Shown here one piece after another: positions 1,533 to 40,656 of a DNA stretch of 42,735 nucleotides. The DNA lies in IMG/VR virus record IMGVR_UViG_3300033141_003703, positions 1-42,735 of that record, one strand, 5' to 3'. Numbering within the stretch: position 1 is the first letter of the stretch; each line of letters opens with the position of its first letter. A program made the translations under genes and the position numbers. This DNA is from a virus. The notes below the pieces were generated by a model. The model had not been told where the DNA came from and searched no databases. It saw only the letters and a program-made list of their open reading frames with translations.

Positions 1533-1901
1533 ATGAAGATTATCGCATTAATACTTTCCTTTTCCCTGGCCCTGCTGATGTGGGCTGTAACTCCCACGCG
1601 GGGCGCAAATCAGGAAAATGAAAAAGTTATACCTTCCAACCCCCTAATACCACAAAAGCTGACTAGAGAAGATGCAAGTAAAATTGCAGGTATCTATTTA
1701 GATACAACAAGGATAACCGTGTATGGTGGTTTGGTTTTTTGTGGTAAAGAGGAAGCAAAACTTATTGTAATTAAAGTAAGGGATAACATTAATCACAAGA
1801 AATACAACCTAATGATTGCCTGGAAGGATGAGAAAATTCTCAAGGCATGGACTGTGGAAGTCCAGCAGGGACCCTTGGGGGAAGGAGATTTATGGATTTA
1901 A
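1533..1901 (+). CDS. Secreted protein of unknown function with Sec signal peptide
   Basis: The 122-residue product opens with a classic signal peptide: MK, then a hydrophobic stretch of about 18 residues (IIALILSFSLALLMWAV), then a small-residue region with probable cleavage near TRGA. The mature part is polar, with no recognised domain. ATG 1533 is chosen because AAAGGAG lies five bases upstream; a TTG at 1518 would add five residues but has no such site. The gene directly follows the SleB-type lysin and overlaps the dCMP deaminase start by 10 bases. It may be a lysis or envelope accessory protein, but that is inference from position only. Confidence 0.7.
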   Translation: MKIIALILSFSLALLMWAVTPTRGANQENEKVIPSNPLIPQKLTREDASKIAGIYLDTTRITVYGGLVFCGKEEAKLIVIKVRDNINHKKYNLMIAWKDEKILKAWTVEVQQGPLGEGDLWI

Positions 1902-2398
1902 TTAAACTCAAGGAATGGGATGCCTACTTTCACTCCATGTGTTGCACTGTAGCCCAAAACAGCAAGTGCCTGAGTCGGCAGATCGGAGCCATCCTGGTGC
2001 GGGATAATGTAGTAATTTGCACTGGATACAATGGACCTCCACGCGGGTATCCCCATTGTGATTGGGTAGATGCGGAAACGGGAAAGAAAACTTGCCCCCG
2101 GCGCATCCTGGGTTACAAGTCGGGAGAGGGCTTACATATTTGCCCTGCCGCACATGCAGAGCGTAATGCTATTGTGCAGGCAGCCAGGCTTGGTATTCCG
2201 GTTAAGGGTTCAACCCTTTATCTTAATACCGGGGTGCCTTGCAAGGATTGCCTTATAGAAATCATCAACGCCGGGGTGCAGGAGGTGGTATGTGAGAACT
2301 TTGCTTATTATGATGATCTTTCCCAATCCTTGATTAAATACTCCGACCTCAAGTTGAGATTGTTTACCCATCTTGCAGGAGAAGTGGCTGATGCCTGA
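1892..2398 (+). CDS. Deoxycytidylate (dCMP) deaminase
   Basis: The 168-residue enzyme converts dCMP to dUMP, feeding thymidylate synthesis. It carries the zinc-binding signature of the family: HAE at residues 88-90 (zinc ligand plus proton-shuttling Glu) and PCKDC at 116-120 (two zinc Cys). The TGYNGPPRG stretch at 44-52 is typical of ComEB/T4-type dCMP deaminases. GAAGGAG at 1881-1887 sets the start at ATG 1892; an in-frame codon at 1847 lacks a site. It overlaps both neighbours by a few bases, in an operon with other nucleotide-metabolism genes including the reductase at 3455. No thymidylate synthase is seen in the window, so the product presumably enters host metabolism. Confidence 0.93.
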   Translation: MDLIKLKEWDAYFHSMCCTVAQNSKCLSRQIGAILVRDNVVICTGYNGPPRGYPHCDWVDAETGKKTCPRRILGYKSGEGLHICPAAHAERNAIVQAARLGIPVKGSTLYLNTGVPCKDCLIEIINAGVQEVVCENFAYYDDLSQSLIKYSDLKLRLFTHLAGEVADA

Positions 2399-3428
2399 AT
2401 ATAATGTGTTAATCTGTAATGCCCTGGAAGCTCTTGAAAGGATGCAAACCGAAAGCGTGGATTGTATCGTTACTTCTCCCCCCTACTATGGGGTAAGGGA
2501 TTATGGATTGCCTCCTATAGTATGGGATGGTGATCCCCATTGCAAGCACGAGTGGGGTATGGAGGGGTTTAGGGATAAAAGATGGAGCTTGGATAAATGT
2601 TTATCAAATAAGCAAGCTACTAACAAGGGTAGTGTTTTTAAAGTAAGTCAAGGGCAATTTTGCATTAAATGCAAGGCATGGAGAGGGTGTTTGGGTTTAG
2701 AACCCCATCCCGATATGTATGTTAAACATTTAACCATAATTGCCAAGGAATTAATGAGGGTGCTCAAACCAACAGGGATATTCTGGTTAAACATTGGAGA
2801 TAGTTATGCCCAGTCGGGGGGGAGTGGGTCAGGGGAATACCAGGAAAGGCACAGACAATTCGGCAAAATCATTCCCCAGGGAACCCGCCAGAATCCCAGG
2901 AAAGCGCCTGCGGGATTCAAACCCAAGGACCTGCTCGGTATTCCCTGGATGATTGCCCGATCCTTCATGAGAGAAGGATGGTATTGGCGGCAATGGATAC
3001 CCTGGGTTAAACCTGCCTCCATGCCGGAACCCCACAAGGATAGACCCAATACCAGTGTGGAAGTGGTGCACCTGTTTACCAAGTCGGGAAAAAAATATTA
3101 TAGCGATATGGAATCCGCCAAGGAATGCTTGGGAATCAAGCGTAATTGGCGTAATGGGGATGCCTTGTTATTGCTACAATGTAATCCCCCCAAGATCAAA
3201 AGCGGGAAAAAGCACCACGCTGCTTTCCCGCTGGACTTGATAACTCCCTTGATCTTGTTCGGCTGTCCCCCTGGAGGAATAGTGCTTGACCCGTTTATGG
3301 GCACAGGAACCACTGGAATAGCGGCCCTGAAACATGGCCGGAATTTTATCGGAATTGAAATGAATGGTGAATATGCCAATGAAATAGCCATTCCCCGGTT
3401 AAAACAAGCACATAAAAATCTTTTTTAA
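2391..3428 (+). CDS. Beta-class DNA methyltransferase (N4-cytosine or N6-adenine)
   Basis: The 345-residue enzyme belongs to the N6_N4_Mtase family. Catalytic motif IV (TSPPY, residues 28-32) comes before the SAM-binding motif (DPFMGTGTTG near residue 300), which is the beta-class order. SPPY is more typical of N4-cytosine than N6-adenine enzymes, but this does not settle the target base. A middle stretch with CIKCKAWRG and LGLEPHPD is common in phage members. The ATG at 2391 overlaps the deaminase stop, with AGGAG at 2377-2381. No cognate restriction gene is seen, so it is an orphan enzyme, probably anti-restriction or regulatory. Confidence 0.9.
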   Translation: MPEYNVLICNALEALERMQTESVDCIVTSPPYYGVRDYGLPPIVWDGDPHCKHEWGMEGFRDKRWSLDKCLSNKQATNKGSVFKVSQGQFCIKCKAWRGCLGLEPHPDMYVKHLTIIAKELMRVLKPTGIFWLNIGDSYAQSGGSGSGEYQERHRQFGKIIPQGTRQNPRKAPAGFKPKDLLGIPWMIARSFMREGWYWRQWIPWVKPASMPEPHKDRPNTSVEVVHLFTKSGKKYYSDMESAKECLGIKRNWRNGDALLLLQCNPPKIKSGKKHHAAFPLDLITPLILFGCPPGGIVLDPFMGTGTTGIAALKHGRNFIGIEMNGEYANEIAIPRLKQAHKNLF

Positions 3429-3454
3429 AACCAATTTATAGGAGATATTAATAT

Positions 3455-6061
3455 ATGGAGCAACTTACCGAAAATGCCTTGAGGGTGCTTAGAAGGCGTT
3501 ATCTCAAAAAGGATACTGACGGCAAGGTAATCGAAACACCACAGGAGCTTTTTCAACGGGTAGCGCAGTATGTTGCCAATGCAGACTGTCTGTATGGCGG
3601 TCCCGGCAATCATGAAACCAGGGATCGGTTTTACAGCATGATGGCTAACCTGGAATTTCTGCCCAATAGCCCTACCCTAATGAACGCTGATAGACCCTTG
3701 GGGCAGCTATCGGCTTGTTTTGTATTGCCGGTAAAGGATTCCATAGACAGTATCTTTGATGCAGTTAAGAACGCTGCCATAATCCATAAAAGCGGGGGAG
3801 GCACAGGGTTTTCTTTTTCCAATCTCCGGCCCGAAAACTCTGTCGTGTTTTCCACGCATGGCGTAGCTTCCGGCCCTGTATCCTTTATGGAAGTTTTCGA
3901 TGCGGCAACCGAAGCCATCAAGCAGGGTGGAACCCGCCGGGGGGCCAACATGGGCATCCTGCGGATTGACCACCCGGATATTGAGAAATTTATTACGTGC
4001 AAAAATGATACGACACGTTTGAATAATTTCAATATTTCAGTTGCCATAACTGACAGATTCATGAAGTGCCTTCATGCAGGAGAGGCTTTTGGATTAGTGG
4101 ATCCGCGTAATCCTCACAAGGTGGTTACTTGGGTTGATCCTGAGCATCTATTTAATTTAATAGTGGATAGTGCGTGGGCCACGGGAGAGCCGGGGATTAT
4201 TTTTATTGATGAGATTAATCGTCATAATCCGGTTTCCCATTTAATGGATATTGAGGCAACCAATCCATGTGTAACCGGTGATACCATGGTTGCTACTCCT
4301 ACCGGCTTTCGTCCTGCCAAGGATATCCAGATAGGCGATAAGATCAACACGGTCAAGGGAGTAGGCATTGTTGCAAAGCGAGAAGTGCATGAAAAAATGC
4401 CAGTATTCCGGGTTGATTGTTCAGATGGGGGGTATATCAGGGTTACCGCATCGCACCAATTTTACGCTGCCAAAAGAGGGGTATGCACCATTAAGAATCA
4501 AAGTAATTCATTGTTCACCCCAATTAGGTTGGATCAATTGGAACCGGGTGATTCAATTCAATTGAAACCCACCAAGAGTCCTTTCGGAATATTACACCCC
4601 CAATTAAACAGGGTAATCATTAACAATATCACTCCCGATGGTTTCGATACGGTATATGACCTGTATGAACCTACTACCGATACGTGGATTACCAATGGTT
4701 ACGTATCTCGGGGATGTGGAGAGCAACCCCTGTTACCTTACGAGTCCTGCAACTTGGGTTCAATTAACTTGGGAAAATTTGTCAGGGGTGGGCAAATAGA
4801 TTATGACCACCTATCCCATGTAGTCAAGGATGCAGTGCATTTCCTGGATAATGTTATTACAATGAATCGGTATCCCCTGCCTATTATTGGAGATCGAACC
4901 AAGTTAACTCGCAAAATCGGCCTGGGGGTAATGGGATGGGCCGATATGCTGATTAAGCTAGGAATGCCCTACGAATCGGATAGTGCTATACATTTGGCTG
5001 AAAAGGTAATGGGGTTCATTAAAGAGAAGGCCATCACCAAGTCAATTGAACTTGGGGCTGAACGGGGAAGCTTTCCGGCTTTCAAGGGTTCTCTTTGGGA
5101 TAACAATGGTTTAAAGCATATGCGCAATGCTACCGTAACTACCATTGCCCCCACAGGAACCCTTAGTATTATTGCCAACTGCTCCAGCGGGATTGAACCC
5201 TTGTTTGCGGTATCGTATGTGAGACGTGCCCTGGATGGTAAGGAAATGGTTTGCCTCAACCCGGAGTTTGAGTGGATCGCCAAGACAAGGGGTTTCTGGT
5301 CTGAGGACCTGGCTCAGAAGATCGGGGAAAGGGGTGACGTGCAGGATATAGGAAATGTTCCCCAGGATATCAAGGAATTGTTTAAAACCGCCCATCATAT
5401 TACTCCCCTACAGCACCTTCGGATGCAGGCGGCTTTTCAGGTCCATACTCATAATGCGGTATCCAAGACTATTAATCTTCCAGCCGATGCTACCCGTGAA
5501 GACGTAAAAGAGGTTTTTTTAGAAGCTCATGAACTGGGCTTAAAGGGAATCACAGTTTACCGGGATATGTGCAGGCCCTACCAGGTGCTGAATTGCCAGG
5601 GAACCCTGAGGGCTGTTCCCGCCCCTCGGCCAAAACAAACCAAGGGTATTACCGAATGTGTCAAAACCGGTTGTGGCAAGCTCTACGTGACAGTTAACCA
5701 TGATGATAAGGGGATTTGTGAAGTATTTGCCCAGATGGGTAAAAGTGGGGGGTGTGTAGCCTCTCAGATTGAAACCATAGGCAGGCTGATTTCCACCGCC
5801 CTCCGATCGGGAGTGGGGGTGGAACCGATTATCAAGCAGTTATCGGGAATCAGATGCCCTAATCCCATTTGGAATAATGGAGATATGATCTTATCCTGTT
5901 CTGATGGGATTGCCCGAGTGCTTAAGGAGGTAACGGGTATCGAGGCAGTGGATGCAGATGAAAATATCGGTGTTCCCATATGCCCGGATTGCGGCCATAC
6001 TCTTATCTCTCAAGGAGGCTGCCTGACCTGTAACCATTGTGGTTACAGCAAATGTTCCTAG
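3455..6061 (+). CDS. nrdJ: Class II (B12-dependent) ribonucleotide reductase with in-frame intein
   Basis: The 868-codon frame encodes an adenosylcobalamin-dependent reductase that makes deoxyribonucleotides. Without the 149-residue intein (residues 272-420) it would be 719 residues. Visible hallmarks are the N-terminal redox Cys (QLSACFVLP), the finger-loop core TNP...CGEQPLLPYESCNLGSINL, and the phosphate-binding segment around IAPTGTLSIIANCSSGIEP. The Cys-rich C-terminus has CPDC...CLTCNHCGYSKC, a zinc ribbon carrying the thioredoxin-linked redox cysteines. The intein sits immediately before the Cys expected to be the active-site radical cysteine (residue 421), so unspliced protein should be inactive. 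No separate small subunit is needed for class II. GGAG at 3441 supports ATG 3455. Confidence 0.95.
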   Translation: MEQLTENALRVLRRRYLKKDTDGKVIETPQELFQRVAQYVANADCLYGGPGNHETRDRFYSMMANLEFLPNSPTLMNADRPLGQLSACFVLPVKDSIDSIFDAVKNAAIIHKSGGGTGFSFSNLRPENSVVFSTHGVASGPVSFMEVFDAATEAIKQGGTRRGANMGILRIDHPDIEKFITCKNDTTRLNNFNISVAITDRFMKCLHAGEAFGLVDPRNPHKVVTWVDPEHLFNLIVDSAWATGEPGIIFIDEINRHNPVSHLMDIEATNPCVTGDTMVATPTGFRPAKDIQIGDKINTVKGVGIVAKREVHEKMPVFRVDCSDGGYIRVTASHQFYAAKRGVCTIKNQSNSLFTPIRLDQLEPGDSIQLKPTKSPFGILHPQLNRVIINNITPDGFDTVYDLYEPTTDTWITNGYVSRGCGEQPLLPYESCNLGSINLGKFVRGGQIDYDHLSHVVKDAVHFLDNVITMNRYPLPIIGDRTKLTRKIGLGVMGWADMLIKLGMPYESDSAIHLAEKVMGFIKEKAITKSIELGAERGSFPAFKGSLWDNNGLKHMRNATVTTIAPTGTLSIIANCSSGIEPLFAVSYVRRALDGKEMVCLNPEFEWIAKTRGFWSEDLAQKIGERGDVQDIGNVPQDIKELFKTAHHITPLQHLRMQAAFQVHTHNAVSKTINLPADATREDVKEVFLEAHELGLKGITVYRDMCRPYQVLNCQGTLRAVPAPRPKQTKGITECVKTGCGKLYVTVNHDDKGICEVFAQMGKSGGCVASQIETIGRLISTALRSGVGVEPIIKQLSGIRCPNPIWNNGDMILSCSDGIARVLKEVTGIEAVDADENIGVPICPDCGHTLISQGGCLTCNHCGYSKCS
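4268..4714 (+). other. Mini-intein (Hint domain) with non-canonical C-terminus
   Basis: This 149-residue in-frame insertion splits TNP|CGEQ of the reductase. Block A is intact (Cys1 then VTGDTMVATPTG). Block B has the expected TxxH as TASH (intein residues 60-63). Block F reads VYDLYEPTTDTWITNG. The length leaves no room for a homing endonuclease. The C-terminal block G reads YVSRG then Cys+1, where canonical inteins read VVHN then Cys/Ser/Thr. Both the penultimate His and the terminal Asn, needed for Asn cyclisation, are replaced by Arg and Gly. N-terminal acyl shift therefore looks possible, but normal C-terminal cleavage does not. The frame is open, arguing against simple decay. Confidence 0.85.
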
Positions 6062-6070
6062 GAAGCAATT

Positions 6071-6478
6071 ATGTTTGATTGGCACAAAATCACCAAGGGT
6101 CGGTGGCAATTGAACAAGCAGGAGGAATGGGGCTTACTTTCCAAGGATGATCGCCATGCAAACAAGGCATGGATTTTGGGCATTCCGTGCCAGGATGGTG
6201 GATTCATTTACCTGTTCCGGGAGAACCTGGATAACCCTTGGAAATCCATTCTCTGCTACTACACCCCCAGGAAACGCATTACGGTTTTATCTCTTTATGA
6301 GGAATTGAAGCACGAAAAAGGGGTATGGATTGATACCCATATAGAGGGCCGGGAAACCCTGTTTTATTTTCCGGTTGGATTATTGCCCACAGTGGCCGAA
6401 AAAATGAAGGCGTTTCGCAAAAGAAGGTTATCTCCCCGAACTCGCCAAGACCTAGCTAAGCGTTTTCAAAAAGGGTAG
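6071..6478 (+). CDS. Hypothetical protein, 135 residues
   Basis: I do not recognise this product. It is rich in aromatic and charged residues, with no signal peptide, membrane segment or Cys pair, and ends in a basic stretch (FRKRRLSPRTRQDLAKRFQKG) that could contact nucleic acid. It begins nine bases after the reductase stop with a weak AGGAAG site at 6058-6063. The following 69-base gap contains a small CCCC-GTTT-GGGG hairpin and no gene. Confidence 0.65.
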   Translation: MFDWHKITKGRWQLNKQEEWGLLSKDDRHANKAWILGIPCQDGGFIYLFRENLDNPWKSILCYYTPRKRITVLSLYEELKHEKGVWIDTHIEGRETLFYFPVGLLPTVAEKMKAFRKRRLSPRTRQDLAKRFQKG

Positions 6479-6547
6479 GGTTGCGTCCATAAGATTGCCC
6501 CGTTTGGGGTTAAATTTGAACGAAAAAGGGGGAATGAATAGGAGAGC

Positions 6548-6778
6548 ATGGCTAGGGGTAAAAGAGGGCAAAAAAAGGCTTCTGAAACGCAATCGCATGA
6601 AATAGCTTGCGTGGATTGTGCTCATTTACACCCTCATTGCTGCCAGAGTCTTGAGGGTCAATTGTTTGAATGCATGGCCCCTAATTGGAAATCTCACGTA
6701 GCCAGGCCCATGTTAATAAACGGATCGCAATATGTTTTACACCCATGCGATCATTTTCAACCCAAGGTAAAAGAATGA
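6548..6778 (+). CDS. Small Cys/His-rich protein
   Basis: The 76-residue product has CVDCAHLHPHCCQ near residues 22-34, then FEC and HPCDHF. This Cys/His spacing is typical of small zinc-binding phage proteins. The N-terminus is basic (ARGKRGQKK). AGGAGA at 6540 precedes ATG 6548. Its stop overlaps the start of the RuvC-like gene as ATGA, implying coupled translation and perhaps a shared role in DNA processing. No specific function can be assigned. Confidence 0.65.
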   Translation: MARGKRGQKKASETQSHEIACVDCAHLHPHCCQSLEGQLFECMAPNWKSHVARPMLINGSQYVLHPCDHFQPKVKE

Positions 6779-7218
6779 ACGTTTGGTTGGGTATAGACCC
6801 AGGAGTAAATGGAGCTTTTTGCGTATGGCATTATAACCGAATCAAAAAATACCGTGAAGCCAGGATGGGCAGATGGGATAATCTCGATGATTTGCACAAC
6901 CTTCGTATCCTATCTGGTAAATTTCCATGTGCCATTTTGGAAAAAATAAACATTTGGAGTAATGATATCGCCGTGATTAAACGGCAGGAATCCTTGGTGG
7001 TTAATTACGGGCAATGGTTAGGCTACTTATTCGCCCTGGGTATTCCAGTCAAAACTGTCAAGCCGAGAACGTGGCAGGCGTTTTGGGGGTTGGATGGCAA
7101 TAAAAAAGCTCATATAGTCAAAGCCAATCAACTGGTTAACCAAACTATCATCAACCACGATCAGGCTGTAGCCCTGCTACTGGCCGAATATGGGAGAAGG
7201 ATATGGATAAAGAATTGA
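6775..7218 (+). CDS. RuvC-like Holliday junction resolvase
   Basis: The 147-residue product has the RNase H-fold pattern of RuvC-type resolvases, which cut four-way DNA junctions during recombination and before packaging. The acidic sites are placed as expected: D8 in GIDPG, E56 in AILEK, and H128-D129 in NHDQAVALLLAEYGRR. The first strand ends VNGAFCVW. ATG 6775 is chosen because it forms the ATGA overlap with the preceding stop; an in-frame codon at 6685 would add 30 residues inside the upstream gene. It overlaps the MazG-like gene by 16 bases. It fits with the ERF and exonuclease genes as a recombination set. Confidence 0.82.
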   Translation: MNVWLGIDPGVNGAFCVWHYNRIKKYREARMGRWDNLDDLHNLRILSGKFPCAILEKINIWSNDIAVIKRQESLVVNYGQWLGYLFALGIPVKTVKPRTWQAFWGLDGNKKAHIVKANQLVNQTIINHDQAVALLLAEYGRRIWIKN

Positions 7219-7544
7219 ATTTTGATACCTACCAGGAAGCAGCTAAAAAAACCGCTGTTTATCCTTGTGTAGGTAATAACTATATTTACCCTTGCTTAGG
7301 ATTGGCCGGGGAAGTGGGAGAACTACTGAACAAAATAAAAAAAATACAGAGAGACCAGGATAATAAATTATCGACTATTACCATAGGGGAATTGGCCTAC
7401 GAGATTGGTGATATACTGTGGTATATAGCTACTCTTTGTAGTGAATTGAAGATTGGTTTGGGTGAAGTTGCACACACTAACCTAATCAAACTGCAACACA
7501 GGATGCAAAAAGGCATGCTGCACGGAGCCGGAGATTACAGGTAA
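7203..7544 (+). CDS. MazG-like nucleotide pyrophosphohydrolase
   Basis: The 113-residue product matches the all-alpha MazG/dUTPase-like NTP pyrophosphatase fold. It has GLAGEVGELLNKIKK (the ExxE half of the metal site, near residues 33-47) and ELAYEIGDILWYIA (the ExxD half, near 64-77). Such enzymes hydrolyse (d)NTPs to monophosphates; in phages they may adjust dNTP pools or lower host alarmone levels. ATG 7203 lies within the end of the resolvase gene. It is followed by a 52-base gap with a strong promoter, so it is the last gene of this transcription segment, although read-through is possible. Confidence 0.88.
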   Translation: MDKELNFDTYQEAAKKTAVYPCVGNNYIYPCLGLAGEVGELLNKIKKIQRDQDNKLSTITIGELAYEIGDILWYIATLCSELKIGLGEVAHTNLIKLQHRMQKGMLHGAGDYR

Positions 7545-28004: not shown

Positions 28005-29852
28005 TTAAAGATTAGGCTGAGCCATTTTTGGCGGTGAGGGAATCCCCTTGTCAGGTGGCCCCGCCGCCTGGTTATTCATAAACATCTCAAGCATACCCTT
28101 CCACTCTTGAACCAAATCAGGCGGTAAATCCAAGTAATCCAACACCTTTGGAGGAATCGGAATACCCATTTGGGTCATAATGGGTATGATCTGTTGAAGC
28201 ATCATAAAAGTCTCATTGCGGCGGTTAGGCGACCAAGGAGATTCTTCTATAATCAAATCATAATCACCGATCGCCATCTCCGGCCCCAACTGCTGGTATT
28301 TTAAACCATCCTGCCCGTTGATAGCCATGATCCGGCCATCACTATAATATTGCTTGATAAATTCCAATAAAATCTTACCCATGATCTTGGTGGACCGGGT
28401 GAGGTTATCAAACAAATTCTGTAAGATAACAATACCTTGGCGAATACGCTGCGAAGTTACTATCCCTGGTGTATCCTTCTGCGATAACCCCAACATCTCA
28501 ATATTGAGGCCGGATACCTCACGAATATCCATTTGGGATAACTTTTCCAACTCAATAAAGGTGCGGGGCACATCGGGAGGTCGAATCTGTTCCGGTGGCT
28601 TTCCCCCCGGAGGAGTATCATATTCCAACACCACCCCAGGCTTGGAGCTTTCCCCCTCCCAACGTTCTTTTTCCACAAACGATCCACGTGCCCCAATCCA
28701 ACCATACTTGGCTGCACGATTGAGAATATGTAATATCTGCACCCGCCGTTTATTGCGCTCCATTTGGGGATCACGCATCGGTTTAACAATACCTAACCAG
28801 CGGCCGGTATAACGATCCTTTTTACCAAAATAGGGAACATAGGGATAACCCTTATATTGGTGTGGAGAGGGACGGTGCAGGAGAATCAGGGAACCTACCA
28901 TAAAACATTGATAAAAAACCGTATCCCATCGAGGCTTTTCCTGGTATTGCAAATCAGGCATCTCGGCAAGCAAAATTGCCAAAGACTTGTCATCCTTGAT
29001 AGGTTCCCAGGAATTGGTTTCCGGGTTGAACGCCTCGTACTTTTGAACCTGCTCCACCTGCTTATACCAGACCTCTAACATCTCATAGGTATTATCCTCC
29101 GGGTCAAAAGCCCGTTTCCAGATGGCTTCATACCATTCGTTATCAGGAGCATCCAATTCATCGGTGTTGAGATAAACAGGAGCATCATGCTCCCCCACAA
29201 TAAATGCCTTGGATAATTCCAATAATTCCTGGGCTTTATCTGGAAACGCTTCCAAAATACTTTCCAAGGTCATGCGCTGCGTGCGAATAATATAACGGGC
29301 ATCGGAAAGATCATACTCCCGCGCCGTGGGATCGAGTAGCATCTCCTCAGGTTGCACGTAAACGATCCTGATCTCACCCCGCGGGTTTTTGCGAGTATCA
29401 ACGATAACCTCATTGAATCCCCGCCCCCCGATAACCATATCCCTGAATGCCTCAGACCGGGAAAAATCAGAATCACCCCGCTCCTGAATTACTCGGGCCA
29501 CTTCGGAAATCAGCTCGGCCTTGAGAATATCACTCTGGTTATCTACAGGTAAATACTTGATGCGATTGCGGTTCGACCTCTCCTGGCCGCATACCAAGTC
29601 AACCGGAGTAGCACATACGTTCAGGGTTAAAGGCACACGACCGGATTCCTCTATCTCCCGCATATCGGCAGTTGACCACTGGTGACCCCAATAGAACTGG
29701 AAATCCAACTGCTCATCTTCAAACCAGGATTCCCTGGCCTGCTTGGCTTCGTTAACCCAAGACCTAACCCGTTTCAGGAAACCATACTCCTTTTCGGCAC
29801 TGGCCCCCTGAACCATAAAGCGGGTATCAGAGATTTTCTTTAGATCGACCAA
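28005..29852 (-). CDS. Portal protein, P22-like
   Basis: The 615-residue product is the dodecameric gate for DNA at the capsid vertex. It has the order and signature stretches of P22-type portals: an N-terminal helix pair (YGFLKRVRSWVNEAKQARES), GRVPLTLNVCATPVDLVCGQ, RNRIKYLPVD and YVQPEEMLLDPTAREYDLSD. A long C-terminal part contains MDIREVSGLNIEMLGL. It starts with TTG 29852, with GGGGAG eight bases upstream, and overlaps the terminase end by 13 bases. It ends 17 bases before the scaffold gene. Confidence 0.88.
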   Translation of the reverse strand: MVDLKKISDTRFMVQGASAEKEYGFLKRVRSWVNEAKQARESWFEDEQLDFQFYWGHQWSTADMREIEESGRVPLTLNVCATPVDLVCGQERSNRNRIKYLPVDNQSDILKAELISEVARVIQERGDSDFSRSEAFRDMVIGGRGFNEVIVDTRKNPRGEIRIVYVQPEEMLLDPTAREYDLSDARYIIRTQRMTLESILEAFPDKAQELLELSKAFIVGEHDAPVYLNTDELDAPDNEWYEAIWKRAFDPEDNTYEMLEVWYKQVEQVQKYEAFNPETNSWEPIKDDKSLAILLAEMPDLQYQEKPRWDTVFYQCFMVGSLILLHRPSPHQYKGYPYVPYFGKKDRYTGRWLGIVKPMRDPQMERNKRRVQILHILNRAAKYGWIGARGSFVEKERWEGESSKPGVVLEYDTPPGGKPPEQIRPPDVPRTFIELEKLSQMDIREVSGLNIEMLGLSQKDTPGIVTSQRIRQGIVILQNLFDNLTRSTKIMGKILLEFIKQYYSDGRIMAINGQDGLKYQQLGPEMAIGDYDLIIEESPWSPNRRNETFMMLQQIIPIMTQMGIPIPPKVLDYLDLPPDLVQEWKGMLEMFMNNQAAGPPDKGIPSPPKMAQPNL

Positions 29853-31372
29853 TTACTAGCTCCCCTAACCCTGGCCCTACGCTTACGGCGCGGAGCATCA
29901 GGTAAACTCGGCGCATCTATCGGGCGTTGCACATTCATTGCATCATCCCTGATCCGGGCAATAGCATCCAACATATCATCATGGCGGGAAAACGGAAAAA
30001 GGGAATACTCTTGAGTTAAGAAAACATGAATAAGGTTGGTATTCCCATCAATAATAGGATTAAGAGGTAAAAAAAACTTTTGATTACTAAACAAAGGAAT
30101 TAACTTGCGAATCCGATCCACCTTGGCTAATCTGCCCTTGAGGGGAGTTATATTAAAGTAAACCCCATCCTCCTGTTGCATCTGTCGCATATACTGTATA
30201 TCGGCCTGGATACCATATTCCTCATAACCCACCCTGATTACATCAGGATGCTTTCTAATCATTTGACAGAGTGAAGACCATCTTTCATGCAGTGCAAGAC
30301 GGGCACGAATCATATCTATCAAATAATAGTTGCCAAGCCGATCAATCCCGATTACCACCATAACAGTATAATCAGAATCCCTCTTTTTACTGTTGGCAGG
30401 ATCAACCAGGAGATACTTGTTTAGCGGAGAGGGAAGTTTTTGATAGTATTGAACCCATTCACCCTTGAATTCCTGCAACTCATCAGCTACGGGGTTCTGT
30501 AAATACTGGGCACTATAATTATAGGGGCCGTTGTCTGCATACCTGTCATCAAGCTCCTTGCGAGTCATGAAAAAGGTATTACCATGCTCATCTTCAGCAA
30601 CACGTATCCGAACTATCCAGGTGCCACTATCTATCATATCCTGGTAGAGATCGTTGAAGTGGTAACGTGTCCCTATTGCCCTGATCTTTCCATTGCGCTG
30701 CCCCAGGTTGGTTGACAGGGCAAAGCAATCCTTGGTTTTCTTGATTTGCTCCGGGGTGGAAACCGAATCCCTGACTACCAAGTCATCATAATTAAGAATG
30801 GAAAAATGCTTACCTGTAGGCATCCCGTCAGTAACACCATGCGCCTCAAAAGTAGCCTCCAGGTAATTTCCCTTGCGCTTGACAATCAACCCATCACGCT
30901 CCGACCATTTGGGGGCCTGGTTTTGGGGATCATCCCAAAAAATATCGGGATAAGTTGCTACAAGAAGTTTGTTATTTTCCAGGGTATGCTTGATGCGACG
31001 CAGGTGATCCCTGGCTATATCCTTGGTATGACTAAAAATACCAATACTGGTTTCAGGACTTCGGATAACTTCCTGTATACTTTTAGCGTAAGTAATGATC
31101 GTGCTCTTGTAATGTTCCCGCGCCCACAAATCAAGGGTGCGGTTGCAACAATCATCTACCTCGTAAACCCTTTCAACTAGCCACGGATGATTAATTTCTC
31201 GTATCCCCAAAATAAAATATATAAGAAAAAATAGATCGTCCTTGCCCCAAAGCTGTAAATGCCCATGCACAGTAGGCATATCATTGCCAGCAATAGCATC
31301 ATTCAGTTCCCTTGCAATGCGGGCATAGTCAAACCTGTATTTGGCTCCGGGTTGATCTTGCCAGAGAAACAT
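29840..31372 (-). CDS. terL: Terminase large subunit
   Basis: The 510-residue packaging motor has a Walker A variant (AREHYKST, residues 84-91), Walker B (FSILNYDD, D196-D197) and a C-terminal RNase H-like nuclease starting at YLLVDPANSKKRDSDYT, where the first acidic metal ligand is Asp, with a late acidic site in HDDMLDAIARI. The basic C-terminal tail (RRKRRARVRG) may contact DNA. It overlaps the small subunit (TAATG) and the portal. It forms the ATPase-nuclease that cuts and pumps genome concatemers. Confidence 0.93.
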   Translation of the reverse strand: MFLWQDQPGAKYRFDYARIARELNDAIAGNDMPTVHGHLQLWGKDDLFFLIYFILGIREINHPWLVERVYEVDDCCNRTLDLWAREHYKSTIITYAKSIQEVIRSPETSIGIFSHTKDIARDHLRRIKHTLENNKLLVATYPDIFWDDPQNQAPKWSERDGLIVKRKGNYLEATFEAHGVTDGMPTGKHFSILNYDDLVVRDSVSTPEQIKKTKDCFALSTNLGQRNGKIRAIGTRYHFNDLYQDMIDSGTWIVRIRVAEDEHGNTFFMTRKELDDRYADNGPYNYSAQYLQNPVADELQEFKGEWVQYYQKLPSPLNKYLLVDPANSKKRDSDYTVMVVIGIDRLGNYYLIDMIRARLALHERWSSLCQMIRKHPDVIRVGYEEYGIQADIQYMRQMQQEDGVYFNITPLKGRLAKVDRIRKLIPLFSNQKFFLPLNPIIDGNTNLIHVFLTQEYSLFPFSRHDDMLDAIARIRDDAMNVQRPIDAPSLPDAPRRKRRARVRGASNWSI

Positions 31373-36905: not shown

Positions 36906-36929
36906 GTTGCGCGATTCATTGCGCGAATT
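36906..36929 (+). repeat. Right pair of TTGCGCGA arm-type repeats beside attP
   Basis: GTTGCGCGATTC (36906-36917) and ATTGCGCGAATT (36918-36929) are again spaced by 12 bases and run up to the integrase stop codon. An inverted copy (AATTGCGCGAC on the minus strand, 36997-37007) lies inside the integrase end. Confidence 0.6.
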
Positions 36930-37980
36930 ATTTGAAGTCTGATAGCACTATTCCCTGGTTGGAATGGATATCCGGCCGGGGTAGTTGCGCAATGGCGTCG
37001 CGCAATTCTTCTCCTATGGAGTGTAGATAAATTTCTGTGGTTCTGAGATTGGTGTGCCTTAATAACTTGCTGATAGTCAGGGTGTTGACTTGGGGATTAA
37101 GCCTCAGTTGGCTTGCCACGTAGTGCCTAATGGCATGAAAACCAAAGTGCCTGATTCCTGCCTTTCGGCATAAATTCCGCATTAGCTTGGGACGGTGGTA
37201 ATACCTGGTTTGGGTTACCGGGTTAAAGAAAACCCATTGATCGCTTTTCCGGTGGCGATAAAGGGATTGCAATACCTTGCAAAGCTCGTTCCCCATTGGA
37301 ATAGCGTCATAAGCCATTTCTCCATTAGCCCTCTTTCGAGTTCCCAGGAGCACCACCTTGTTGTTGAAGTCTACGTGCTCCCATTCCAACCTGAGCACCT
37401 CGTCCACTCTAGCCAGGGTATAATATAACACCTGTAAGAAAGGCCGATCTTCTCCAGCTACCAGAAACAACCTCCCTATTTCTTCTGGTGTAGGAATAAT
37501 TTTTCTTGCTTTTTCTACTGGCAGCCGATCAATATAGGCGCAAGGGTTGGAAGTTAGGAAGGCCCGTTTGATTCCCCAATTAAATAATGCACTTAGTTCC
37601 TTGCGGTGGACGTTGTAATTATGGTTGGAGGAGCGGGTTTTAAGATAGTTCTCCACCGTTATTGGGGTTATGGTTTTGATGGGCATATTACCCACCGCCT
37701 CCAGAAAGCTTTTGAATACAAAGAACTTGTATTTGTGGGTTTGCAAGGTGTGTCGCCTTTCTGAAAACTCTAAATACTTATTGGCGAAATCCTTAAAGTC
37801 TATACCGTCCCGTTCCTGTCTCTCCTGCTTCGCCAATTGTGCTTCCAGTTCTACTCTGGCCTGAGCTAGCCCTCTTTCTGCCTCTGCCTTGGTAGCATAC
37901 CCTGCTTTGGTGCAAATCCTTTTGCCGCGGTAAAACAGGGAGAACCGCCATTTGGCTTTTTTGTCTTTCCAAATACTCAT
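36928..37980 (-). CDS. int: Tyrosine integrase
   Basis: The 350-residue site-specific recombinase has an N-terminal arm-binding segment (KAKWRFSLFYRGKRICTKAG), a SAM-like core-binding domain, and a catalytic domain. Catalytic residues visible are Arg in ARVDEVLRLEWEHV (first R), HAIRHY (HxxR), the second His in LLRHTNLRTT and the Tyr in EIYLHS. It integrates the phage into tRNA-Pro through the attP about 50 bases downstream. GGAGG precedes ATG 37980, and these ribosome-site bases lie inside the excisionase-like frame. Confidence 0.94.
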   Translation of the reverse strand: MSIWKDKKAKWRFSLFYRGKRICTKAGYATKAEAERGLAQARVELEAQLAKQERQERDGIDFKDFANKYLEFSERRHTLQTHKYKFFVFKSFLEAVGNMPIKTITPITVENYLKTRSSNHNYNVHRKELSALFNWGIKRAFLTSNPCAYIDRLPVEKARKIIPTPEEIGRLFLVAGEDRPFLQVLYYTLARVDEVLRLEWEHVDFNNKVVLLGTRKRANGEMAYDAIPMGNELCKVLQSLYRHRKSDQWVFFNPVTQTRYYHRPKLMRNLCRKAGIRHFGFHAIRHYVASQLRLNPQVNTLTISKLLRHTNLRTTEIYLHSIGEELRDAIAQLPRPDIHSNQGIVLSDFK

Positions 37981-38834: not shown

Positions 38835-39809
38835 GTGGAGCCAATCAAGCTTAATGCTTTTGACGTCGGGGCCTGTGCGCGGAAAGTGGTTTATAAACAC
38901 TTGGGTATGGAACCCAAACCATTTACCCAAAGACAAAAACGAATATTCAAAATGGGGGAACTTCTAGAGGGATTAATTTTGGATAATGCTCCATATGAAG
39001 TTGTGGGCCGGGGATACCATTTACAGGTAGATGTGACCTACCTAACAGGTATTCCAGCTTACTTCAGCCTGAGACAAGACGGGATGGCCTCTGACCCCCT
39101 GGATCGGAATGGGGATTGGATAGTAGAGGCAAAGTCAATGAATTCTAGGGCGTTTGCTCATGCAAAGGCCGAGGGGATCGCGGTATCGCATCCCCAATAT
39201 TTATGGCAAGTAGCGTGCTATCTCAAGGCTTCGGGGGAGAATGATTTTGAGGGAGTTATTTTTGAAATCCTTAATAAGGATAATGCTCAGACTTGGCGGG
39301 AATTTATAGAAAAAGATGTGCTGCTGACTGCCTGGGCACAGGTAGAAGAACGAGCAGCTTACCTAATAAATTGTATAACCAAGAAAGTATTACCTGGTCG
39401 GTCCAGCAATTTACCAACTTGGGCGTGTCTTGGTTCCTATTGTGAATACAGCCATATATGTGAATATGGAGAAGGCCAACGAGAGCATATTCACCACGAT
39501 ACCAACCCTGTAGATAACATTGAAAGTCTTGAGGAATATCACGACTTTTTGTCTTATTGTCAAAACTATATGATTTACCATCAACAACAAAAGGAGGCTG
39601 AAGATCAAAAAAAGACAGCCTACAACAATATTAAAGCCATTATGAAACAATATGGCTTGAAAAACGTTGTTTCCGGTGGGTTTAAGGTAACTTACTCAAG
39701 GTACCCCAGGCAAAGTGTCAACCTTGATCTGATTCCGCCGGGAATTTTGGCAGAGGCAACTACTACTAAAGAAATCAGCAAAATCAGCATCAAAGAGGTC
39801 GAAAAATGA
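38835..39809 (+). CDS. PD-(D/E)XK exonuclease (RecB/Cas4-like)
   Basis: The 324-residue product has a nuclease core with D82 (RQDGMASD), ExK at E98-A-K100 (WIVEAKS) and a following Gln in HPQYLWQVACYL. Cys13 and three C-terminal Cys (WACLGSYCEYSHIC) suggest an iron-sulphur cluster as in Cas4/AddB-type enzymes. It probably resects DNA ends for the ERF annealing protein encoded downstream. It starts with GTG 38835 after GAGGG. The next gene overlaps by four bases. Confidence 0.85.
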   Translation: MEPIKLNAFDVGACARKVVYKHLGMEPKPFTQRQKRIFKMGELLEGLILDNAPYEVVGRGYHLQVDVTYLTGIPAYFSLRQDGMASDPLDRNGDWIVEAKSMNSRAFAHAKAEGIAVSHPQYLWQVACYLKASGENDFEGVIFEILNKDNAQTWREFIEKDVLLTAWAQVEERAAYLINCITKKVLPGRSSNLPTWACLGSYCEYSHICEYGEGQREHIHHDTNPVDNIESLEEYHDFLSYCQNYMIYHQQQKEAEDQKKTAYNNIKAIMKQYGLKNVVSGGFKVTYSRYPRQSVNLDLIPPGILAEATTTKEISKISIKEVEK

Positions 39810-39988
39810 AATGTCCATTTTTAACTTCTACACATGACCATCAGTGTAGGGGGGAGGAGTGTGGATTATGGAGTCCTACCTTCAACCAATGCTCTTTGGC
39901 CGCGATAGCTGAAGTAATGGAAGAGGTGGTAGGGGAACTTGAGGAAATTAAAGAACATTTGGAAATTATTTACCAAAGGGGGTATTAA
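39806..39988 (+). CDS. Small Cys-rich protein, 60 residues
   Basis: The product begins MKCPFL, has CRGEECGLWSPTFNQCSL and then an acidic helix (AEVMEEVVGELEEIKEHLEI). The pattern of CPF...C.GEEC.LW...QC.L followed by a helix is common in small phage proteins placed next to recombination genes. It may bind a metal. The start and end overlap the neighbours, so it is part of the exonuclease-ERF unit. Confidence 0.7.
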   Translation: MKCPFLTSTHDHQCRGEECGLWSPTFNQCSLAAIAEVMEEVVGELEEIKEHLEIIYQRGY

Positions 39989-40656
39989 TGCACTCTGAAA
40001 CAATAGGTAAGTTAGTAGAAGCGTTAGCCAAGGTCCAGCACAAAATACAGAACCCCACCAAAAACGCAGACAATCCGTATTTTAGAAGCAAATACGCGGA
40101 TTTGCCTCATGTTTGGGATTCCTGTAAAAAGCTCTTAAACGAAAATGGCCTAGTGGTGATGCAGACCATGCGCAATGAGAATGATGCTATTACGGTTTAT
40201 ACTATCCTGGCCCACACTTCGGGAGAGTGGGTTCGGAGTGCATTATCTGTTACACCCAAGCAAGATAAAGATGGTTTTATTACCGCCCAGGCTATCGGTA
40301 GCGCCATTACCTATGCGCGCAGATATGCCTTGTCTGCCATTGTGGGGATTACTCCCGATGATGACGACGACGGGGCGGTAGCATCGGGAACAGTAGCACA
40401 ACAAGCACAAAAAAATGCTCCCAAGGTTGAGTTGAATTCAAATGTTTCCGATCAGAGTAATGAGCATAAAAAGGCAAGTCCTGCCCAAATCAAGTATCTC
40501 AAAACCTTGGCGTTGAGAAAACAGGTGGATATAAAAGCATTGTTGCAATACCTGGGGGTCAAGAGCATGGAAGATGTGCTCTTTACTGAGGTTGACAAAG
40601 CTAAAAAATGGATTGAGGAAAAGGCAAATGAAAGAGGAAACAATTCAACTAATTAA
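39988..40656 (+). CDS. erf: ERF-family single-strand annealing protein
   Basis: The 222-residue product matches the ERF superfamily: LVEALAKVQHKIQNPTKNADNP, then FRSKYADLPHVWDSCKKLLNENG, AIGSAITYARRYALSAIVGI and an acidic TPDDDDDGA stretch. It anneals complementary single strands in phage recombination or circularisation. The C-terminal part (PAQIKYLKTLALRKQ...) resembles the helical tail of such proteins. It works with the upstream exonuclease and the SSB. Confidence 0.92.
   Translation: MHSETIGKLVEALAKVQHKIQNPTKNADNPYFRSKYADLPHVWDSCKKLLNENGLVVMQTMRNENDAITVYTILAHTSGEWVRSALSVTPKQDKDGFITAQAIGSAITYARRYALSAIVGITPDDDDDGAVASGTVAQQAQKNAPKVELNSNVSDQSNEHKKASPAQIKYLKTLALRKQVDIKALLQYLGVKSMEDVLFTEVDKAKKWIEEKANERGNNSTN

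Follow-up and report, generated by a model that had tools for sequence, protein, structure and literature searches.

Gly-terminal inteins at the radical-cysteine site of class II ribonucleotide reductase form a conserved lineage that probably splices without cyclisation of the last residue

How might an intein release its C-extein when its last residue is a glycine? Passages of a published account of intein chemistry name Asn, Gln, Asp and Glu as the C-terminal residues whose cyclisation performs this release (PMC4031507). The question is raised by the nrdJ gene of a phage genome, in which an in-frame intein ends in Ser-Arg-Gly. The window (the whole stretch of DNA that was analysed, 42,735 nucleotides) is that of a temperate tailed phage, and nrdJ lies among genes of nucleotide and DNA metabolism that span positions 1847-7544 (Table 1).

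Table 1. Features of the nrdJ locus and of its genome context (positions are those of the window)
Feature	Position	Strand	Basis
dCMP deaminase-like	1847-2398		
N4/N6 methylase	2373-3428		
nrdJ precursor	3455-6061	+	PRK08665, TIGR02504, PF02867, PF00317, TSCPD, 1xje match
N-extein, end ...IEATNP	3455-4267	+	translation; aligned to 1xje up to residue 322
Gly-terminal mini-intein, 149 aa, without homing endonuclease domain	4268-4714	+	alignment; predicted Hint fold
Block A, Cys1, CVTGDTMVATPTG	4268-4306	+	Cys1 in 15/15 Gly-type, 33/33 other inteins
Block B T-A-S-H (Thr60, His63)	4445-4456	+	T60, H63 in 15/15 Gly-type
Short linker at the endonuclease-like insert position of larger relatives	4565-4618 (approximate)	+	alignment
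Block F VYDLYEPTTDTWITNG: Asp131 (F:4) kept, Asp138 (F:13) replaces His, Trp140	4652-4699	+	
Asp138 (F:13) codon, candidate step-3 catalytic residue (putative role)	4679-4681	+	conservation
Block G YVSRG replaces xxVHN: Ser147 G:5, Arg148 G:6, Gly149 G:7	4700-4714	+	
Cys+1, also expected thiyl-radical cysteine of NrdJ	4715-4717	+	aligned to 1xje residue 322
C-extein CGEQPLLPYESCNLGS..., 448 aa, with stop codon	4715-6061	+	translation, Pfam, 1xje match
Holliday junction resolvase-like	6754-7218		
MazG	7203-7544		
Portal	28005-29852		
Terminase large subunit	29840-31372		
Integrase	36928-37980		
Cas4-domain exonuclease	38835-39809		
ERF recombinase	39988-40656		

The nrdJ open reading frame encodes an 868-residue precursor of a class II (B12-dependent) ribonucleotide reductase. 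The protein matched two NrdJ profiles of NCBIfam (PRK08665, 1077 bits; NrdJ_Z, TIGR02504, 689 bits) as well as the Pfam families PF02867, PF00317 and TSCPD. The insert runs without a stop codon, starting with CVTGDTMVATPTGF and ending with VYDLYEPTTDTWITNGYVSRG. It lies between ...EATNP and CGEQPLL..., and its C-terminal junction reads TDTWITNGYVSRG/C (here and below the slash marks the junction). In an alignment with the NrdJ of T. maritima (1xje), the match of the N-extein stops at residue 322 and that of the C-extein begins at residue 321. Since the two matches meet at residues 321/322, the insert is located directly before the Cys that aligns with Cys322, which we take to be the thiyl-radical cysteine of the T. 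maritima enzyme.

Profile and structure comparisons were used to characterise the insert. Residues 1-66 matched the NCBIfam model intein_Nterm (TIGR01445) with 25.1 bits for a cut-off of 24.5, a score that dropped to 20.5 bits, under the cut-off, when the whole NrdJ protein was the query. Matches of the insert to Hint_2, Hint and Intein_splicing of Pfam remained under their cut-offs. The same was true of a match to Pfam DUF7454 (PF24253) on Hint residues 16-59 (positions 4313-4444); this uncharacterised domain may correspond to a piece of a Hint domain. The insert was modelled with AF2 together with 15 flanking extein residues at either end, and the model reached a mean pLDDT of 78.5 and a pTM of 0.75. 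The pLDDT was at least 90 in large parts of the Hint core, fell to about 60 at the C-terminal junction, where the Hint domain is modelled with least certainty, and lay under 50 in the exteins. Its best PDB match was the Ssp DnaB mini-intein 6frh (Foldseek, E 7.6e-9). The insert is predicted to fold as a Hint domain. A first-pass annotation of this DNA had described an in-frame Hint domain of 149 residues seated before the radical cysteine with SRG/C at block G, and the translation, the fold model and the 1xje alignment confirm this description. The same annotation had called block F intact, which holds for the Asp at F:4; at F:13, the His has been replaced by Asp.

We identified 15 distinct Gly-terminal inteins at the NP/CGEQ site of NrdJ, in six viral contigs (the window, L036, L084, L227, L228 and L249) and nine bacterial genomes (L114, L124, L136, L143, L148, L197, L198, L199 and L237), with three phyla represented. 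Thirteen of them end in SRG and two in QQG. These Gly-type inteins were compared with 33 others from the NrdJ site, but this set of 48 distinct inteins was enriched by profile and motif searches, so that 15 of 48 is not to be read as a frequency. The selection rule of the set required a Cys at position 1 and yielded 47 inteins; the canonical copy of L136 was added by hand, which gives 33 rather than 32 non-Gly inteins. The set was assembled from terminal-motif scans, from viral contigs scanned with a profile and from genome searches in three phyla (400, 379 and 5 genomes). Matches were obtained in 91 of the 400 genomes (E 1e-10) and, at E 1e-40, in 2/379 and 1/5, each count including the central genome of the draw. 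The eight strongest matches among the 400 genomes (E <1e-90) were four Gly-type inteins (those of G001, which was the centre, G281, G033 and G134) and four Asp-type inteins. In this search the intein ends were read for the best 30 loci, and the end of L210 was unreadable.

Across the best 80 of 113 viral NrdJ loci, the site was without insert in 71, carried an insert in eight and was undetermined in one. The insert interrupts, in frame, a conserved site of its host protein (NP/CGE) for which empty alleles exist. One of the eight insert-bearing viral loci, L036, ends in QQG. A motif scan of genome contigs returned 77 stretches, five of which were in-frame Gly-type NrdJ inteins (L114, L124, L136, L143 and L148), the rest being unrelated; because the motif demanded an N-G pair, it could not return members with E-G or D-G, which makes five a lower bound. 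A further candidate, L250, was rejected as an out-of-frame chance match. With the window intein as query, only two viral loci were matched, weakly, and no match at E 1e-5 was found in 50,697 phage records. The L124 intein used as query matched 120 phage and 3 plasmid records, all with <60% identity and irrespective of the last residue; 4,422 phage records presented a ribonucleotide reductase match. An insert in which LAGLIDADG-like motifs were identified by eye is present in 13 of the 15 members. The other two, those of the window (149 aa) and L143 (143 aa), are natural mini-inteins without the endonuclease-like insert in which the splicing residues are kept.

Other arrangements were observed at and around this site. 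Six of the 47 inteins are Gln-terminal (L004, L204, L207, L213, L220 and L234), and four of these (L004, L204, L213 and L234) also have no penultimate His. L243 (G281) is a single NrdJ open frame of 2098 aa with three inteins: HN/C at the ACFV site, SRG/C at NP/C and HN/T further on. In the Microgenomates L136 (G002) and L148/L178 (G005), three NrdJ-like genes lie in tandem, one of them with a Gly-type intein, and in G002 this site is occupied in the next NrdJ copy (L136:6244-7419) by a canonical HN intein.

From a single contig alone, one could suppose a dead intein or a sequencing error at its end, and a gene that is merely an open frame without function. Against this supposition, 15 distinct sequences have frames that stay open through the insert, and the reductase of the window keeps the aligned 1xje core, with an N-x-C-x-E motif that is divided by the insert and is whole only once the insert is removed. 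The codons of the terminal residues have turned over as well: the 13 SRG members use five codons for Ser (TCT, TCC, TCG, TCA and AGT) and five for Arg (CGG, CGA, CGC, AGA and AGG), and all four Gly codons were seen in the 15 members. This indicates that the terminal residues are held by selection at the protein level. Synonymous change was saturated in 5/5 pairs tested, with dN of 0.14-0.39, so that dN/dS ratios are not computable. Together, codon turnover and saturated synonymous change argue against a sequencing error, a recent pseudogene or a constraint on the DNA sequence. The same-site relatives sharing Arg-Gly by which the first-pass annotation proposed to check its reading do exist and are conserved, and the dead frame or sequencing error that it had allowed for is consequently very unlikely.

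We then asked which residues accompany the terminal glycine. All or all but one of the 48 inteins share Cys1, Gly54, Thr60, His63, Val129 and Gly144. Gly149 (G:7) defines the Gly-type group (15/15 vs 0/33), and Asp138 (F:13) follows exactly the same distribution, being found in every Gly-type member and in none of the 33 other inteins at the site. The patterns that retrieved two members, L228 and L249, required Asp at F:13; the other 13 were retrieved without that requirement. Glu39 is likewise present in all 15 members vs one of the others, and Trp140 in all 15 vs four of the others, those four being Asp-terminal sisters. At G:6, the Gly-type inteins present Arg (13) or Gln (2) and no His. 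The residues of steps 1-2 are invariant in the group. In class 1 inteins, as passages of PMC4031507 describe them, the His at F:13 assists Asn cyclisation (step 3) and G:6-G:7 is a His-Asn pair; according to part of PMC5050341, phage inteins are known that lack only the G:6 His and tolerate this loss. On the evidence of residue conservation, the set of step-3 residues has changed together in the Gly-type inteins and the residues of steps 1-2 have been retained. The replacement of His by Asp at F:13 is probably the most telling feature of the lineage. Few residues that offer a usable side chain are invariant: Cys1, Glu39, Asp53, Thr60, His63, Asp131 and Asp138, in addition to Cys+1.

Cys+1 was present in the window and in 13/13 aligned rows. 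It was required by two terminal-motif scans and by the selection rule of the set, and was not required in the 400- and 379-genome searches, the viral profile scan and one terminal-motif scan. Because this Cys is required by the reductase itself and by most of the search patterns, its presence is no proof of splicing.

Phylogenetic trees place the Gly-type inteins together with four Asp-terminal inteins (SLD/C; L200, L201, L202 and L203), which come from four Chloroflexota genomes and share the insertion site in NrdJ. The two groups form one side of a branch with a support of 100/100 in a 47-row tree, and again with 100/100 in a 40-row tree inferred without the last 13 residues and without seven long-branched rows. 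Canonical rows are split from this clade by about 1.2-1.4 changes per column in both trees; the canonical copy of L136 was in neither. Within the clade, the QQG pair groups with the Asp-terminal inteins (91/88 with 47 rows, 95/86 with 40 rows), and a single Gly clade was not rejected by a topology test (p-AU 0.288). With the Asp group nested beside the QQG pair, the terminal Gly may have had one or two origins. In the Asp-terminal sisters, the Asp is at G:7 and F:13 is occupied by Leu or Ile. Gly- and Asp-type inteins alike therefore possess one carboxylate at F:13/G:7, which suggests that this carboxylate may work from either position.

Our results suggest that the Gly-terminal inteins at NP/CGEQ are a conserved lineage which probably excises itself, ligates the two halves of NrdJ and cleaves the Gly/Cys+1 bond without cyclisation. 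Steps 1-2 would proceed as in class 1 inteins, with a thioester at Cys1 followed by transfer of the N-extein to Cys+1. Since the last residue is Gly and has no side chain, step 3 cannot be a side-chain cyclisation; some other group in that active site would cleave the Gly/Cys+1 amide instead. Foremost among the candidates is Asp F:13, which is invariant and takes the place of the step-3 His usual in class 1 inteins. Asp138 could act as a base, either on water or on the Cys1 thiol that step 2 sets free, or could itself be the nucleophile. The reductase halves would be ligated, and Cys+1 would become the radical cysteine. We favour Asp138 because the F:13 neighbourhood is known and because this Asp changes with Gly; Glu39 also changes with Gly but is less favoured, as it lies outside the known splicing blocks. 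We regard as evenly balanced the more general proposal that these inteins represent a further intein chemistry, in which C-terminal side-chain cyclisation is replaced by the attack of another group on Gly/Cys+1. In one variant, Asp F:13 would take over the carboxylate role of the last residue of the Asp-terminal sisters. In another, Cys1 would act twice and the excised intein would be closed head-to-tail into a circle.

The second variant can be formulated as a distinct route. The thiol of Cys1, once freed, would attack the carbonyl of Gly, and the resulting Gly thioester would shift to the Cys1 amine, giving spliced NrdJ and a circular intein. In favour of such a route, no thiol of the intein other than that of Cys1 is invariant, and Gly is an unhindered acyl donor. 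However, it leaves the pairing of Asp F:13 with Gly unexplained unless Asp is the base, and we consider it rather improbable. Cleavage might also occur elsewhere, for example at the Asn of an N-G pair located seven and six residues from the end, given that Asn-Gly is prone to succinimide formation. This residue is Asn in nine members, Glu in five and Asp in one, and cleavage there would not yield a product with NPCGE restored. The succinimide route was rejected because the Asn is not conserved across the 15 members, and C-terminal cleavage away from the junction appears highly improbable in general.

Cleavage without ligation is another alternative. The Cys1 thioester would be hydrolysed, as in hedgehog or BIL domains, to leave a two-piece reductase or a fusion of the intein to the C-terminal half. 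Block G has none of the residues known to release a C-extein, and type B BILs without block G similarity are described in part of PMC4031507 as cleaving without splicing. In contrast, a break or a retained insert would here fall at the radical cysteine, and in four of the nine Gly-type host genomes (G001, G004, G033 and G524; draft assemblies) the intein-bearing gene was the single one detected with PF02867. The other five genomes contained further ribonucleotide reductase genes or fragments; the control of this search was positive in 11/14 named genomes. Class III NrdD was detected in 0/9 host genomes (draft assemblies; control positive in 6/14). In the four single-gene genomes, the monomeric class II family matched the same genes only, under its cut-off, and an R2-like match was found in G001 only (PF00268, 81.7 bits). 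In addition, BILs have no +1 nucleophile and sit in variable regions, whereas these inteins have Cys+1 at a catalytic site, and a conserved Ser-Arg-Gly at the far end would serve no need if cleavage at Cys1 were the only reaction. Overall, cleavage without ligation seems unlikely.

Several observations favour true splicing instead. With a LAGLIDADG-like insert in 13/15 members, a non-splicing form would break each gene that it invaded, and large inteins with endonuclease-like motifs can spread only if the host gene is not disabled. A canonical ...HN/C intein is found in the same polypeptide as the Gly-type intein in L197 (G281) and L227. The hosts with a single detected reductase, the endonuclease-like inserts, the mini-inteins that keep their splicing residues and the co-resident HN inteins together favour splicing. 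Of the three possibilities raised by the first-pass annotation, splicing by an unusual route is thus the one that we favour, with the conditional force given above. Its dead frame has become very unlikely, and its N-terminal cleavage or two-piece reductase is disfavoured by the position of the insert at the radical cysteine of the only reductase detected in 4/9 hosts.

No report of a Gly-terminal intein was found in the portions of the open-access literature searched. The retention of Gly in an essential enzyme, with a coordinated change at F:13, implies either an undescribed third step or a cleavage-only element tolerated at a radical site. If the third step is real, last-residue cyclisation can be replaced, and the excised intein would end in Gly or be circular. 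With the two mini-inteins (window and L143) the question of splicing can be tested directly, and splicing without Asn would be a useful tool for protein ligation.

We compared the Gly-type inteins with known systems, first with class 1 inteins that end in Gln, Asp or Glu. Both types share the Hint fold, Cys1, T-x-x-H, Asp at F:4, Cys+1 and the loss of Asn at G:7. The last side chain of these class 1 inteins can cyclise, whereas Gly-type inteins have none and present in addition Asp at F:13 and Arg/Gln at G:6. Examples given in PMC4031507 of class 1 inteins with these ends include the ribonucleotide reductase intein of Chilo iridescent virus and archaeal Pol II inteins. The Chilo iridescent virus intein resembles the Gly-type also in its reductase host. 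Canonical NrdJ-site inteins (e.g., L136:6244-7419, ...THSFIANGIVVHN/C) have the same insertion site and architecture as the Gly-type but possess His at F:13, His at G:6 and Asn at G:7, all three of which are missing from the Gly-type. The Asp-terminal L200-L203 are closer: they share the site, the 100/100 clade and a similar VYD-[LV]-YEP-x-T-x-x-W-[IV]-TNGY-x-S motif, and differ in having the carboxylate at G:7 (Asp) and Leu/Ile at F:13.

Type B BILs resemble the Gly-type in having a Hint domain without a canonical block G. BILs have no +1 nucleophile (parts of PMC4031507) and sit in variable regions (parts of PMC5874633), in contrast to the Cys+1 at a catalytic site of the Gly-type. Block G of the Gly-type keeps the spacing and G-x-V of inteins and differs from them in the last residues. 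In the Hog domain of Hedgehog, the Gly-Cys pair forms the N-terminal junction, with no C-extein after it. The insert of the window shares the Hint fold with Hog, but its Gly/Cys is at the C-terminal junction and is followed by a reductase C-extein of 448 aa; nor is it a C-terminal Hint domain with a sterol-recognition region. The Gly-Cys bond of Hog is rearranged to a thioester (part of PMC5874633). Finally, the insert differs from class 2 and class 3 inteins, which have no Cys1/Ser1 nucleophile, by the presence of Cys1. It agrees with class 1 in its predicted Hint fold, Cys1, T-x-x-H, Cys+1 and a conserved site with empty alleles, and the Gly-type departs from class 1 in having no cyclisable terminal residue and no His at F:13 and G:6, two residues that are usual but not obligatory in that class. 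If splicing were shown, the Gly-terminal lineage would merit a class of its own.
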